This document shows positions 2,304 to 64,000 of a stretch of DNA of 64,000 bases, one piece after another. Under the pieces are notes generated by a model that was not told where the DNA came from, did not search any database, and saw only the letters and a program-made list of their open reading frames with translations. Each line of letters opens with the position of its first letter. The first letter of the stretch is position 1. This DNA is from Saccharomonospora xinjiangensis XJ-54 (GTDB taxonomy: Bacteria; Actinomycetota; Actinomycetes; Mycobacteriales; Pseudonocardiaceae). The translations under genes and the position numbers were made by a program. The stretch is from contig NZ_JH636049.1 of the NCBI RefSeq assembly GCF_000258175.1, forward strand, positions 4,379,482 through 4,443,481. The letters run 5' to 3'.

Positions 2304-2936
2304 TCACTCCCGGCGGAATCGGGCCAGCCAAGCGGGCAGGTCCACGGTGTCACCGGAATCAACTCCGAGCCGTGTGGCCGCCTCCCCGCGGGCGACCGCG
2401 CGGTAGTGCGACCGGTCGAGGCTGTCCAGTTGCCATCCTCCGGTGAATGCCTCCCGGATCGCGGTGTCGCTGATCCTGGGACCGAAGCCCGGCTCGTCGG
2501 TGAGCGCGAGGGCGAGCACGTGCACCCACGCACCCGGACGGCAGACCCGGTGCAGTGCTCGCGCGTACCGTGCGGCGTCGGCCGGGGCGAACACGTGAAA
2601 CAGCGCACTGTCCACCACGGTGTCGAAATAGTCCGTGTGGATGGGTTCCAGCATGTCCGCCACCTGGAAGCGCGCAGACACGCCGTGCCGCTCGGCGTTG
2701 CGCCGAGCCAGATCGACGGCAGGCTCGGAGAAGTCGATCCCCAGCACGTCGTAGCCGAGGCGGGTGAGGTGGATGGTGTGTTCGCCTGTGCCGCATCCGG
2801 CGTCGAGCACGCGACCGCGGACGAACCCGGAGCGTTCAAGGTCGATGATCGTGGGCTGCGGCTCACCGATCACCCAGCCGCCGGACTCGGTCCGGTATGC
2901 GGTGTCGAACTGGTCCCTCGCCACTGACTCGTCCAT
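2304..2936 (-). CDS. Class I SAM-dependent methyltransferase
   Basis: The protein has 210 residues with a Rossmann-type methyltransferase core. Motif I is VLDAGCGTGEHTIHL at about residues 40-54, followed by an acidic strand end in VLGIDFSEPAVDLAR and motif II/III-like VVDSALFHVF. The size and ending fit small-molecule methyltransferases of the UbiE/thiopurine-like group (Methyltransf_25), so the substrate cannot be assigned. The ATG start is preceded by GGGACGGG. The gene stands alone. The upstream region carries a MerR-type dyad overlapping a TTGACC -35 element, which suggests inducible expression in response to a small molecule or metal. Confidence 0.8.
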   Translation of the reverse strand: MDESVARDQFDTAYRTESGGWVIGEPQPTIIDLERSGFVRGRVLDAGCGTGEHTIHLTRLGYDVLGIDFSEPAVDLARRNAERHGVSARFQVADMLEPIHTDYFDTVVDSALFHVFAPADAARYARALHRVCRPGAWVHVLALALTDEPGFGPRISDTAIREAFTGGWQLDSLDRSHYRAVARGEAATRLGVDSGDTVDLPAWLARFRRE

Positions 2937-3250
2937 GTGTTTCCCGTCCCTCGGTGAGCGCGCTGGCGTATCCAGCCTCTAATCTCCACCACGCTGGAGG
3001 TCAACCTTCTGGCGCACATCGCACCGGCCTCGACGGGACGGCTGGGGTTCTCTGGAGCCGGGCCGGGCTCCCGGTGCGAGCCTGCCTTCCTTCTGCGGGC
3101 CATCCCCGGACTGGGTTCGGGCAACACCGATCGTCGCCACCGCGACCTGACCGTCGCCGGCAAAGCGGCATCAGGGCGTCCGGGACGCCGGTCCCGGCTC
3201 GGCCCCGCGGGCAGGCGAGGCGGGTGCGCGGGCTGGGTTCGAGCGTGGGA
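2937..3250. other. Intergenic region, 314 nt
   Basis: This stretch contains the methyltransferase promoter with a MerR-like dyad at 2982-3004. The rest, up to the end of the ABC ATPase gene, holds no supported gene; open frames here have no recognisable protein character. Confidence 0.5.
2982..3004 (-). promoter_or_regulatory. MerR-family-type operator/promoter of the methyltransferase gene
   Basis: Read on the minus strand the sequence is TTGACCTCCAGCGTGGTGGA followed by GATTAG. A TTGACC -35 hexamer overlaps a dyad (CTCCA-N6-TGGAG) placed in the -35/-10 spacer. That layout, with TTGACCTC directly abutting the dyad, is typical of MerR-family regulated promoters in actinobacteria. No merR gene is in the window. 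Confidence 0.45.
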
Positions 3251-60240: not shown

Positions 60241-61413
60241 TCACGGCCGTACCGGAAGCCGGTCGAGGTGGGCCGAGGTGCACTGCCGGGGCGCGTTCAC
60301 CGGGTTGCACCGGGCTGGGGTGCCGCCGGGAATGCGGGCCACGTAGTCGCTCTGGTGCCTCGCGGCGAGGCCCACGGCGGGGAAGTCGGTGCTGATGATC
60401 TGCGCGCCGCTGGACAGTGCGGCCTCCAGGCGCGAGGTATCGCCTGACCGGGCCTCGTGGAAGGGCACGTCGGCGCGCGTGCGCACGAGGTAGCCCTCCC
60501 GCACCAGCGCGCGGATCTCCTCCTCGCCCGAACCGGTGGGGTCGTTGCGCTGAACGTAGGCGGCGTCGGGGTCACCGGGGCTCGCGTTGGTGAAGAGAAC
60601 CCTGCCTTCGAGGTTCGGCCTGCCCTTGAGGTAGTTGTCCCGTGCGGGTCCACGGCTGTTGTCCATCAGGAACAGCACCGTGCCGCGCGACTCCCGCAGC
60701 GTCGGCCAGCCTCGGGAGAGCACCGACTCCTCCAGGGTGCGGCCGGGAACGCGGAGGTCGTCGGGTGTGATCATGTCGTCCTCGCCGAACACCGACCGGA
60801 TCTCGGCGTCAACGGTGTCGAGGTTCGCCTCGTCCCACGGCGGGCTCGTGGGCCCGCCGAGCGCTTCCTTGGCGGGATCGGTCTGCTTGAACTCCAACAT
60901 GATCACGATCGGGACGTGGCCAGGGTTGGCGTCCGAGAAGTCGCGGACCTGCCGAAGGCAGTCCACCAAGGTGGCGCACGACGTACCGTAGTCGTGGTCG
61001 GCCCAGTGCAGCACCTTGGTGCCGGGACGCCGCATCCGAGGGTCGTCGATCGGTCCGAGCCCGGCGTCCCTGCGCACCAGCGGCTCGGTGTAGAGGCCGC
61101 CATCGGGATCGGGGAAGACATCGAGTTCGATGCTGCGGACGGCCTGCTCGCGAAGCTGGTCCGACAGCGACGCGTGGGAGTAGGCGAGGTTCCACCAGTT
61201 GCGGTCGGTGAGCTGCTGAACCGCTTTCTCCTCGTCGGTGAGTTCGCGGTGGTAGCTGTTGTGGGTGCCGACGGCTTGGATCTGGTTCAGCCGGACGACC
61301 TCGCCGGTCGGCGGGTTCTGGCCCGCGTCGCTGGACGCCGGCGTGAGAAGCAGACCGGTGGCGGCGGCGACCGCCGCCACGGCGAGAGGGGCGCGGAATC
61401 GGTGTGGAGGCAT
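60241..61413 (-). CDS. Secreted PI-PLC-like phosphodiesterase (calcium-dependent PLC C1 type)
   Basis: The protein has 390 residues with a signal peptide at about 1-30. The catalytic His51 is in AVGTHNSYHREL, followed by IELDVFPDPDGGLY and HWADHDYGTSC. This is the C1-type phosphatidylinositol-specific phospholipase C family, which lacks the classic X/Y layout. The natural substrate is unknown. The ATG at 61413 has ACAGGAGCGG upstream. It is divergent from the Crp-type gene. Confidence 0.85.
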   Translation of the reverse strand: MPPHRFRAPLAVAAVAAATGLLLTPASSDAGQNPPTGEVVRLNQIQAVGTHNSYHRELTDEEKAVQQLTDRNWWNLAYSHASLSDQLREQAVRSIELDVFPDPDGGLYTEPLVRRDAGLGPIDDPRMRRPGTKVLHWADHDYGTSCATLVDCLRQVRDFSDANPGHVPIVIMLEFKQTDPAKEALGGPTSPPWDEANLDTVDAEIRSVFGEDDMITPDDLRVPGRTLEESVLSRGWPTLRESRGTVLFLMDNSRGPARDNYLKGRPNLEGRVLFTNASPGDPDAAYVQRNDPTGSGEEEIRALVREGYLVRTRADVPFHEARSGDTSRLEAALSSGAQIISTDFPAVGLAARHQSDYVARIPGGTPARCNPVNAPRQCTSAHLDRLPVRP

Positions 61414-61602
61414 GGCCGCTCCTGTCACGACAAGATCATCTTTCGGGGGTGAATGGTGCGCGGCGTCGGTGAACGCCCAACAGCGGTGTCGTGGCCGCGG
61501 ATCGACGGCTCGGCGACACGCGGGGTGATCACCTCACTGACCGTGGCAGGGCGGCGACCCTTCGAGTGATCTTGTGTCACGGCCGCCCGCGGCACGGGTG
61601 CG

Positions 61603-62307
61603 GTGAGTACAGAGAAGGGCGTGAGCGAAAACCACCACGCACGTCCATTCCGTGGATTCCGATCTCTCATCCCCGGCCTCGCCTGGTCACGACTCGTCCA
61701 GCACGGCGTCCGCACCCCGCACCGCGCGCAGGAACGGCTGCTCAATCAAGGCGATGCGGGCGGTTGGGTCTTGCTGTGCGTGCAGGGCAGGCTCAAGGTC
61801 GTCTACGCCGAACCCGATGGGAGGGAACTCCTGCTCGCCGTGCGCGGCCCCGGCGATCTCATCGGCGAATTCTCCGGGTCCGACGGCCATCCGAGGTCCG
61901 CCACCGTCGCGGCGATCGAGCCGGGCAGCACCTCGAAACTTCCCGCGCGGCAGTTCGCCGATCTCGTGCGGCGGCTCGGCCTCGAACAGCACCTGAACAG
62001 CTACATCCTCGGCAAGGTGCGGGAAAGCGCTGCCCATGCCTGGCAGCTCGCCCACCTCACCACGGCGGCGCGACTGGCGGACCTGATCGCGACCCTCGTC
62101 GAGGCGGCCGGTCCGGACCACCCGAGCCCGGCCACCATCGCGATGTCGCAGGAAGAACTCGCCTCGGCGCTGGGCCTCGTGCGTTCGGCTGTCACGCCGG
62201 TGCTCGCGAGGTGGAAGGCGTCGGGACTGGTGCGCATCGCCAGGGGCCGGTTGGAGGTTCTCGACATCGCGGCGCTTGTGTCCAGTTCTGGACAGAACCG
62301 CCCGTGA
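61603..62307 (+). CDS. Crp/Fnr-family transcriptional regulator
   Basis: The protein has 234 residues. A cyclic-nucleotide-binding fold lies at about 30-135 (GWVLLCVQGRLKVVYAEPDG, GPGDLIGEFS, SATVAAIEPG), and a winged helix at about 165-220 (MSQEELASALGLVRSAVTPV). The first 25 residues are not part of the fold, and a second GTG start at 61621 is possible. It is divergent from the PI-PLC-like gene and precedes the cyclase-like gene by 54 nt, so it may control either. Confidence 0.85.
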   Translation: MSTEKGVSENHHARPFRGFRSLIPGLAWSRLVQHGVRTPHRAQERLLNQGDAGGWVLLCVQGRLKVVYAEPDGRELLLAVRGPGDLIGEFSGSDGHPRSATVAAIEPGSTSKLPARQFADLVRRLGLEQHLNSYILGKVRESAAHAWQLAHLTTAARLADLIATLVEAAGPDHPSPATIAMSQEELASALGLVRSAVTPVLARWKASGLVRIARGRLEVLDIAALVSSSGQNRP

Positions 62308-62361: not shown

Positions 62362-63390
62362 ATGGACCAGGAACTGCCGCACGACCGTGGCTTCGGTGAC
62401 CTCATCGGAATCCTCGCGGTGGACGTCTGGCGTTTCAGCGCCCACAACGACGCCCAGCAGAAGACGATCCTCGATCTGCTGCCCGCGGTGCTGCGGGACT
62501 CGGCGACGAAGGCGGGCCTTCGCCAGTTGTGGGACGGGCACGTCTTCCGGGCTTTCCGGGGAGACGGCTATCTCTTCGGTGTGCGACCCGATCTGCTGGG
62601 CGCGGTCGTGGACAGGTATTTCGACTCTCTCCAGAACGAGTTGCGCCGCAGGGCTGCCGAGCTGCGCGCGAGCGGGGTGCAACTCCGGTTGCGCGCGAGC
62701 CTGCACCTGGGGCCGGTGGAGTCGTTCGACGCGCTCGTCACCGACTCGCCACACGGCAAGACCATGATCGAGGCGGGCCGGATGGTGGACTCCGCGCCGG
62801 TCCGGGCACTGCTGGACCACTCCGACGCCGAGGTCACCTTCGTGGCGTCCGTGGTGTCCGGCGCGGTGATGGAACACGTCGTGGAGGCAGGCAAGTGCCT
62901 TCGCAAACCGAGTGAGTTCGTGCGGGCGTCGTTGAAGGTGGACGCGAAGGAATACGAGGGAACGGGCTACCTGCGTGTGCCGACGCCGTCGGGCGAGCTG
63001 CTCACCTCCGGCCTGCTGGCGGTTCAACAGCGGGCGGAGTCCGCTGAGCCCGCCGAGCCGAGGGGGTCCGCTCGGAGGACCGGGGGCGAGGCCAGCACGT
63101 CCAACACCTTCGACGGCATCGCCGACACCGCCAATCAGGTCCGTGACGTGCGGGGCGGGTTCGGCAACGGCGCCGTGCGCGGTGTCAGCGGCAGCGTGGT
63201 GGTGACGGGGAACAACAATGTCGCGGGTAACAGGGATGCCATCAATGTCGCGGCGGAACGGGACGCCCACGTGGACCGCTCCACGACAACGCAGGAGTTC
63301 TCCGGGGCGTTCTTGACCCAGGGCGACGGCAACTTCGGGCCGAACAGTGGGCGGCGCACCGCCGACGACACCCGGCCCACGGGACGGTGA
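62362..63390 (+). CDS. Class III cyclase-fold-like protein with C-terminal Gly/Asn signalling motif
   Basis: The protein has 342 residues. Residues 15-210 resemble a nucleotide-cyclase homology domain: IGILAVDVWRFSAHND (first metal Asp), FRGDGYLFGV near 66-73, and RLRASLHLGPVESFDAL near 110-124. Conservation of all catalytic residues is not certain. A linker follows, then NTFDGIADTANQVRDVRGGF (248-268), SVVVTGNNNVAGNRDAINV (278-296) and GDGNFGPN (321-328). These Gly/Asn motifs also occur in the next gene. The function was not recognised; a signalling effector is the best working idea. Confidence 0.7.
   Translation: MDQELPHDRGFGDLIGILAVDVWRFSAHNDAQQKTILDLLPAVLRDSATKAGLRQLWDGHVFRAFRGDGYLFGVRPDLLGAVVDRYFDSLQNELRRRAAELRASGVQLRLRASLHLGPVESFDALVTDSPHGKTMIEAGRMVDSAPVRALLDHSDAEVTFVASVVSGAVMEHVVEAGKCLRKPSEFVRASLKVDAKEYEGTGYLRVPTPSGELLTSGLLAVQQRAESAEPAEPRGSARRTGGEASTSNTFDGIADTANQVRDVRGGFGNGAVRGVSGSVVVTGNNNVAGNRDAINVAAERDAHVDRSTTTQEFSGAFLTQGDGNFGPNSGRRTADDTRPTGR
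63193..63249 (+). other. Gly/Asn motif encoded at the 3' end of the cyclase-like gene
   Basis: This encodes SVVVTGNNNVAGNRDAINV. Aligned with SVSVTGDGNQAAGRDVINR in the next gene it gives SVxVTGxxNxAGxRDxIN, with the motif placed at the effector's C-terminal end. Confidence 0.6.
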
Positions 63391-64000
63391 ATGGTCGTGG
63401 AACGCCAATTCGAGGATCTCGACGCCTTCGGCATCCTCGCCGACGCCGAGAACCACGCAGAGAATCACGCCGACACTCGCGCCTGGAACCTCGCCGATCC
63501 TCTCACCGTGCCCGCGCAGGACACCGCCACGCTCGGGCAGCATGACGATCCCGCTCAGCTCGCGTCTTCGGTGAGCGTCACCGGTGACGGCAACCAGGCT
63601 GCGGGCCGGGATGTCATCAACCGGACGCAGCACATCGAGTCGCTCTACCTGCTCCTGGGCTCGGGCGAGCCGGAGGAGACCGCGCGGGTACGGCAACGCG
63701 GTGGGCGGGGGCTTCAGGACCCGGAGGCGTTGAGGCGGCTCGCGCAGCAGTACGTGGCGCCGCCGGGACTTCTGGGAGACGAGCCCGGCACCGCGCTGCG
63801 CACGCTCGACGAGCGCAATGTCCTATTCCTGACGGCGGAGGAGCGCAGCGCAGGGCAGTTCGCGGCCGGGTTGCGGCTGGGCTACGAACTGCGCGAGAAG
63901 TACCCGGATCTCGCCGTGCGCGAGGAACTCCTCGATCCCGATTTCCGGTTGAGCGAGCATGAGCTGCTCGGCAAGCGGGGACAGGCCGCGCTCGTGCTGG
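63391..64000 (+). CDS. Start of a downstream partner protein (partial)
   Basis: The first 203 residues are present; the gene runs off the right edge. It begins at the ATG directly after the previous stop codon. An unstructured N-terminal region (about 1-58) leads to the motif SVSVTGDGNQAAGRDVINR (60-78), and a helical segment with LAQQYVAPPGLLGDE follows. At about 141-166 the segment ERNVLFLTAEERSAGQFAAG resembles a P-loop NTPase entry with the usual GxGKT changed (ERSAGQ), as in degenerate STAND-type proteins. No complete domain can be called. A receptor or scaffold for the cyclase-like protein is inferred from the shared motif. Confidence 0.6.
   Translation, partial: MVVERQFEDLDAFGILADAENHAENHADTRAWNLADPLTVPAQDTATLGQHDDPAQLASSVSVTGDGNQAAGRDVINRTQHIESLYLLLGSGEPEETARVRQRGGRGLQDPEALRRLAQQYVAPPGLLGDEPGTALRTLDERNVLFLTAEERSAGQFAAGLRLGYELREKYPDLAVREELLDPDFRLSEHELLGKRGQAALVL

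Follow-up and report, generated by a model that had tools for sequence, protein, structure and literature searches.

A proposed three-gene actinobacterial CRP, cyclase and STAND relay coupled by hypervariable matched motifs

We describe an actinobacterial gene trio, proposed to act as a relay that is coupled by hypervariable matched motifs. It consists of a CRP regulator gene, a gene for a probable nucleotide cyclase (gene A), and a gene for an apparent STAND-type sensor (gene B). The trio is compact and lies on the plus strand at the end of the window, which is the whole stretch of 64,000 nucleotides that was analysed (Saccharomonospora xinjiangensis XJ-54, NZ_JH636049.1). We observed the gene order, pair-specific motifs that diversify together, conserved catalytic-type and ligand-pocket residues, and relatives in which a TIR protein replaces the cyclase. 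The original prediction read A and B as an effector and its receptor. That reading is supported by the STAND family downstream, the conservation of the motif, and PDB matches to cyclases only, with the qualifications given below. The observation stands and is larger than was first stated. It now includes the upstream CRP gene, the TIR-effector version of the B sensor, and the change of the motif from locus to locus, all of which were absent from the prediction.

The features of the locus are listed in Table 1. The gene coordinates confirmed that A and B abut, as had been read from the sequence. A ends in TGA, B begins at ATG 63391, and there is no gap between them. The two genes overlap by 4 bases in 31 of 54 loci (window included; starts were picked mechanically). 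Gene B continues past the window end, up to 4445070 on contig G000:C2 of the 4.8-Mb, two-contig assembly, and its full length is 732 aa. The neighbors with Pfam matches are the PI-PLC-like gene, the CRP gene, and, downstream, genes for proline and aldehyde dehydrogenases, a PucR-type HTH protein, DUF6226, and SHMT. When nine flanking proteins were compared with 17 loci of other species, a single weak match resulted, which suggests that the trio is the unit. The PI-PLC-C1 gene also adjoins the trio in L004. It was not found at the 17 loci of other species.

Table 1. Coordinates of the trio, its motifs, and adjoining features in the window
Feature	Position	Strand	Remarks
PI-PLC-C1 family gene adjoining the trio	60241-61428	-	Pfam 9e-123
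Conserved element TTCGAGTGATCTTG, probable operator/promoter of the operon	61561..61574	+	Conserved in clade
CRP-type regulator gene	61603..62307	+	Pfam PF00027 1.5e-14, PF13545 3.7e-12
Gene A, probable divergent class III nucleotide cyclase with C-terminal motif tail (P0002)	62362..63390	+	342 aa
Cyclase-like domain of A, residues ~12-212, with D21, D68, R140, K196	62395..62997	+	
RHIM/BASS3-like segment of A, residues 248-267	63103..63162	+	Post-hoc pattern
Paired motif in A, SVVVTGNNNVAGNRDAINV, residues 278-296	63193..63249	+	
Gene B, STAND-family sensor (putative), first 203 of 732 aa (P0001)	63391..64000	+	
Paired motif in B, SVSVTGDGNQAAGRDVINR, residues 60-78	63568..63624	+	
Degenerate P-loop region of B, residues 142-159, NVLFLTAEERSAGQFAAG	63814..63867	+	

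Homologs of A were collected from several samples. A protein search gave at least 59 proteins, A itself counted. A match was present in 18 of 61 related genomes, and GTDB contigs gave 17 loci. Among 394 genomes of the class, at least 75 matched at E ≤ 1e-15, a minimum because few candidates were scored per genome; 30 loci were fetched from this set. Removal of duplicates left 68 distinct A loci. The cyclase was present in 5 of 296 genomes of a phylum-wide sample at E ≤ 1e-15, and all five were in the class of the window. Phage records searched with A gave no match. Nine large Streptomyces/Embleya plasmid records (H1 to H9) partly match the cyclase of a relative (L018), over 61 to 69% of its length and at 31 to 35% identity.

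Partners of A were recognized with an HMM of the B core that ignored the head. A B-family gene followed A in 54 of the 68 loci and was not recognized beside A at 14. Six of these 14 are marginal cyclase matches, and L060 and L071 are contig-end or fragment cases by eye. In L042, A is frameshifted and the B gene was not recognized, yet tblastn shows B there. No B-family gene was found next to the cyclase at L011, L013, L057, L067, or L068. L067 and L068 contain the CRP and cyclase genes, followed by a membrane-protein-like gene instead of B, and the cyclase tail is short. The cyclase homologs of L011 and L013 end in a tail of RHIM-like type (TAIQVGHLHGGLH in L011), and no CRP or B gene was detected beside them. 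One further locus, L044, was left out of motif matching for a wrong start, which gave a set of 53 pairs.

Judged by its profile matches and conserved residues, gene A probably encodes an active but divergent class III nucleotide cyclase. A profile of 22 A homologs was compared with the PDB. At E ≤ 1 it retrieved only four sequences, all cyclases (three named Ma1120 and one named "Cyclase"), with a best E of 8.4e-4. Residues D21, G67-D68, R111, G117, and R140 are invariant in all 54 cyclases with a B partner, and K196 is present in 53 of the 54. We take D21 and D68 to be the two metal aspartates, R140 the transition-state arginine, and K196 the phosphate lysine of class III enzymes. Position 136 is presumably the column of the class III transition-state Asn. 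It is V in 29, I in 15, N in 9, and T in 1 of the 54, and I in the window protein. Since the usual Asn is absent in most members, we regard A as a divergent member of the class III fold and do not claim canonical status for it. The cyclase fold of the original prediction thus agrees with the PDB search and the catalytic-type residues and finds no counterpart in Pfam, where cyclase families matched neither A nor any of 22 diverse homologs. A PADLOC search of A also gave no match, PycC included.

Gene B appears to encode a sensor of a STAND-type family, and nucleotide binding was apparently lost in the branch of the window. Pfam gave no significant match to the window protein. Among 17 aligned B proteins, 7 match Pfam nSTAND3 at E ≤ 0.1, and the curated cut-off of this model was passed by 3 of 8 scanned (L017, L018, and L022), in the P-loop part of the model only. 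Weak HEAT matches lie toward the C-terminus of B, with HEAT_2 in 3 of 17 proteins. The comparison of a B profile with the PDB gave no convincing match (best E of 0.043, unrelated). A strict P-loop pattern is present in 26 of 37 B proteins outside the window clade, although one of these (L025) is spurious and lies in the motif region. It is present in 0 of 17 within the clade, window included. NVLFLTAEERSAGQFAAG of the window protein sits where relatives carry G.PG(S/T)GRRTTA. The STAND module of this clade is therefore probably inactive, and nucleotide-driven switching there is doubtful. The original prediction looked for a STAND/NLR protein downstream. The family, which has P-loop members, partly fits this, and the window clade, which has no P-loop, fits it less well. 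Inactivated STAND modules (iSTAND) have been described (PMC8195603).

The paired motif was examined first in the window. SVVVTGNNNVAGNRDAINV in A and SVSVTGDGNQAAGRDVINR in B are the segments that align best when the two proteins are compared locally (BLASTP E = 0.003, single comparison). The ungapped match has 11 of 21 identical residues and a score of 53. When the B head was shuffled at constant composition, 4 of 5000 shuffles scored at least as high. Taken alone, the window pair gives moderate, not overwhelming, evidence, and its match is probably not due to chance. The motifs lie where the prediction had placed them, toward the C-terminal end of A (278 to 296) and the N-terminal end of B (60 to 78). 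"Near the C-terminus" is right for A, though 46 residues come after the motif. No second copy of the A tail was found elsewhere in the genome. One match to the tail at E = 0.05 was discarded; its frame looks spurious and is antisense to a 128-aa ORF. Residues 255 to 317 of A gave a weak, composition-like NCBIfam match to FapE (E = 0.0089; 15.2 bits versus a cut-off of 250).

Across relatives, the sequences make a strong case for pair-specific motif matching. The ungapped scores of the 53 A tails against their own B heads sum to 3430. Permuted partners gave 1672 ± 67, with a maximum of 1984, and the own-pair sum was reached by 0 of 20,000 permutations. The motif is thus conserved across homologous pairs, as the original prediction had proposed to check. 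The same was found for the 17 loci of the window clade alone (879 versus 634 ± 35; 0/20,000) and for the 36 loci outside it (2551 versus 1141 ± 67; 0/20,000). A control stretch of B, residues 200 to 330, scored a median of 24 and a maximum of 37 against the A tail, versus a median of 63 for the heads. All 200 composition shuffles were exceeded by 42 of the 53 pairs and not by the other 11. Compared with loci that share less than 60% A-core identity, the own head was best in 35 of 53 loci with gaps and in 39 without. Against all other loci it was best in 24 (gapped) and 27 (ungapped) of 53, because near relatives share motifs. Some head from a locus with less than 60% A-core identity scored at least as high as the own head in 14 of 53 loci, which our inspection attributes partly to acidic or proline linkers and shared motif types. 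An initial matched-pair test, before the B-family filter, put the own partner on top in 32 of 61 loci. That set included wrongly called neighbors (among them the frameshifted L042, and L011, L013, L067, L068, and L071, which have no recognized B).

The motif itself varies among loci. Examples of the pairs (A and B) are NFSGASGTFVGVNQNSTNHGKQNY and DFSSASGMFSGINQNSPNHGTQNY in L049, VTISGDGAQSAFGNTVGGD and VTITGDGAQSAFGNTVSRD in L070, GGIGRISGGVGNVFTDATGTIN and GGIGRISGGVDYVFTDARGPIN in L021, GQGIYQPLVFGDIVN and GQSVHRPLVFGDIRN in L045, and RGQVVQAGTVNGGV and QGQVVSADSINGGV in L058. Ancestral duplication followed by drift would give no preference for the own head, which argues that the A tail and the B head change together.

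A contains a second segment. An NTxxGxxxxxVxQxRDxxGG-type stretch had been noted at residues 248 to 268 and is present at 248 to 267 (NTFDGIADTANQVRDVRGGF). It was not found in the B protein of the window. In our view it resembles the RHIM-like BASS3 motif. A pattern for this segment, composed after the data had been inspected, matched 24 of 53 cyclase tails (shuffled mean, 3.7), 10 of 17 TIR tails (1.5), and 3 of 53 B heads (1.7). The RHIM-like type is the paired motif itself in L054, L055, L058, L062, L063, and L066. The segment may be a common assembly element of the effectors.

The B family also occurs with other effectors. A B search in 118 genomes gave 13 distinct loci, window counted, of which 8 have the cyclase. 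L093, L094, and L095 carry a TIR gene directly upstream of B, with Pfam TIR_2 above its cut-off in 3 of 3 scanned. L102 has a divergently oriented EAD1-TIR gene beside B, and FKVSGGN(V/L)NFG is common to both. Neither a cyclase nor a TIR gene was found beside B in L104. In the 394-genome set, about 28 more B loci had no cyclase match nearby. Twenty of these were fetched, chosen by eye and mostly from the top of the list. An HMM built here placed a TIR gene directly upstream of B in 14 of the 20. Five have neither TIR nor cyclase, and L125 has a weak cyclase-profile match (4.2e-6).

The TIR proteins and their B partners share motifs as well. The 17 same-strand TIR-B pairs (L093 to L095 and L106 to L119) have a motif sum of 1086 versus 702 ± 47 for permuted partners (0/20,000); the L118 pair has no motif match. 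The called genes overlap by 4 bases in 17 of 17 pairs. Matched motifs thus appear to connect one sensor family with alternative effectors. In a quick tree of the B proteins (69 rows, with L044 and L061 omitted), the distribution of cyclase and TIR partners requires 5 changes. A single change is forced when well-supported branches alone are used, so repeated effector swapping is suggested and not demonstrated. Motifs of the TIR-STAND pairs include GPVHTGxGDQY and GDINQxSPxHHGxGxQ. By eye, a TPR-like gene precedes the TIR gene in L093, L106, and L114. At 2632 to 3105 (oriented), L124 encodes a short protein beside a B-family sensor. The short protein contains a hydrophobic segment, ends in a GGDVIISGGDAHVGRDR motif, reminds us of BELL, and is a possible BELL-type effector.

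The CRP regulator of the window contains a cyclic-nucleotide-binding domain and a Crp HTH domain (Pfam). By an HMM, 62 of 68 loci have a CRP homolog upstream of the cyclase gene; the homolog is on the opposite strand in L024 and 883 bases off in L061. It is upstream in 53 of the 54 cyclase loci that have B. In these loci the pocket Glu is present in 53 of 53 and the pocket Arg in 51 of 53; we take both to be phosphate-pocket residues. No CRP gene was found at 20 B loci away from cyclases, where 3.5 kb of upstream sequence was covered, or a shorter stretch for L115 and L122. In these samples, therefore, the CRP goes with the cyclase and not with the sensor.

The upstream element TTCGAGTGATCTTG presumably resembles a CRP half-site. 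All 17 clade loci, the window among them, carry it with 10 to 14 of 14 bases matching, between -41 and -51 relative to the aligned CRP start. Outside the clade, the best matches are 7 to 11 of 14 at scattered positions. Its near-constant distance from the CRP gene suggests autoregulation. Translation of the CRP may in fact begin at GTG 61621, 18 bases later than the start of the longest ORF, and a -10-like TACAGA lies close to this GTG. The stretch 61561 to 61621 suggests a leaderless, possibly CRP-autoregulated promoter. A genome scan for TTCGAGTGATCTTG gave one exact copy (its own), one site with 1 mismatch, and 12 with 2 mismatches; a reversed control pattern gave 3 matches. The 1-mismatch site (G000:C2:2560349-2560362; L079) lies, by eye, between divergent epoxide-hydrolase-like and aromatic-prenyltransferase-like genes and is possibly due to chance. 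Five of the 10 inspected 2-mismatch sites fall inside a likely gene. The matches were insufficient to claim targets, and a wider CRP regulon was set aside.

The trio is probably one module, with an NLR-like STAND sensor, a motif-coupled cyclase, and a transcription output driven by the CRP. B would assemble on detecting its trigger. The N-terminal motif of assembled B would then meet the matching motif on the A tail, and this meeting would nucleate a cross-beta or similar homotypic stack, amyloid or not. Class III cyclases act as dimers. We propose that gathering A would therefore switch on cyclic-nucleotide synthesis. The gathered A would make the cyclic nucleotide, and the CRP encoded upstream would bind it as receptor and alter transcription, at least of its own operon. 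In the end, the module may serve in regulated cell death or in the response to phage or stress.

Several other readings of the motifs were weighed. The motifs may provide constitutive docking, by a small beta-solenoid or strand exchange, and hold sensor and cyclase in a stable complex with no prion-like templating. The sequence data fit any homotypic docking, short repeats rich in G, N, and D suit beta-solenoids too, and a window-clade B without a P-loop fits a static scaffold. The layout, the motif diversity, and the RHIM-like second segment instead parallel the amyloid signalosomes described in section 9 of PMC7889193, and we consider docking of this kind unlikely, with an appreciable chance of being right. 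Gene conversion or recent duplication could keep the two segments alike without functional matching, since adjacent homologous segments can convert and own pairs are most alike in 39 of 53 loci when compared with distant ones. The copies, however, differ at many residues (11 of 21 identical in the window), the B control stretch has no match, and unrelated motifs and TIR effectors show the pattern as well, which makes conversion very improbable. Hardly any weight is left for the idea that the A tail and the B head are low-complexity Gly/Asn linkers whose resemblance is compositional. It draws on the 4 of 5000 shuffles for the window pair and on the 11 of 53 pairs that fall within their own 200 shuffles. 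It is largely refuted by the 42 pairs that beat all of theirs and by the permutation, in which comparable heads taken from other loci match worse.

A further alternative concerns A and the CRP. A could be a catalytically dead, nucleotide-binding adaptor, and the CRP a separate protein that merely controls expression of A and B. The noncanonical Asn position and the lack of a Pfam cyclase match would fit this, as would the autoregulation suggested by TTCGAGTGATCTTG. Against it, both metal-type Asp residues and the Arg are invariant and the Lys is nearly so across deeply diverged members, and CRP presence tracks the cyclase rather than the sensor. We think a dead adaptor decidedly unlikely and prefer the module with a motif-gathered, active cyclase.

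A bolder form of this preferred module is offered tentatively, as one that may well turn out otherwise. It is a prion-like immune receptor that would signal to the genome and not to a killer. A cyclase templated by sensor assembly would flood the cell with cNMP, and the dedicated CRP would answer with transcription, that of its own operon included, so that a self-reinforcing switch results. The motif would serve as many orthogonal lock-and-key pairs, and the generic RHIM-like segment of the effectors could link different signalosomes within a cell. Discussion of bacterial NLR-like receptors has focused mostly on their triggering of cell death or NAD loss. If the module is real, it would link such a receptor with both a second messenger and its own transcription factor, a relay closer to animal innate immunity. 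The co-diversifying pairs would be a ready set of putatively orthogonal prion-like couplers, with specificity rules that can be read from sequence. Some actinobacterial cyclases and CRP proteins labelled "hypothetical" would also gain a proposed function from the module.

The trio resembles parts of several known systems. Pycsar effectors are of TIR or membrane types. In Pycsar (PMC11224242), the cyclase likewise adjoins a protein with a cyclic-nucleotide-binding domain, and the cNMP domain of the window CRP weakly matches the PADLOC PycTIR and PycC models. Unlike Pycsar, the trio has a DNA-binding CRP as its cNMP reader instead of a TIR or membrane effector, A has no PycC match, and there is an extra STAND gene. 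Cyclic-nucleotide cyclases have also been linked to MoxR-vWA systems by fusion or by EAD or Death-like domains (PMC7159879 and PMC8195603). The iSTAND/iSTAND2/VMAP ternary systems share with the trio inactive STAND modules, homotypically coupled effectors (through EADs), and linked cNMP cyclases. They differ in having MoxR-vWA cores and folded EAD or Death-like domains, whereas the trio has a short hypervariable motif as its linker; no MoxR-vWA pair, folded EAD, or Death-like domain was found at the window trio. The TIR-STAND pairs (L093 to L095 and L106 to L119) are alike in B family, gene layout, and motifs that match as a set. They differ in that TIR replaces the cyclase, and no CRP was detected near L106 to L119.

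The BASS NLR/effector pairs are alike in having a short motif at the effector C-terminus and at the N-terminus of an adjacent STAND/NLR-like protein. They are alike too in their occurrence in actinobacteria, their many motif families, and TIR among their effectors. Families BASS 1 to 10 are those of Dyrka et al. 2020, taken here from PMC7889193, PMC8086366, PMC12261475, PMC9815663, and PMC7885112. BASS motifs occur on NLRs with BELL and less often with CHAT or TIR effectors, and section 9 of PMC7889193 names these three and no cyclase. No recognized description of a CRP-cyclase-STAND operon with paired motifs came from the literature searched, in partial texts and with the primary BASS study outside that search, and we claim no priority. 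Unlike the BASS pairs, the trio has a nucleotide cyclase as effector, and its operon is completed by a CRP regulator. By this comparison, it would extend the idea of the amyloid-motif NLR signalosome to a cyclase effector and a CRP output.
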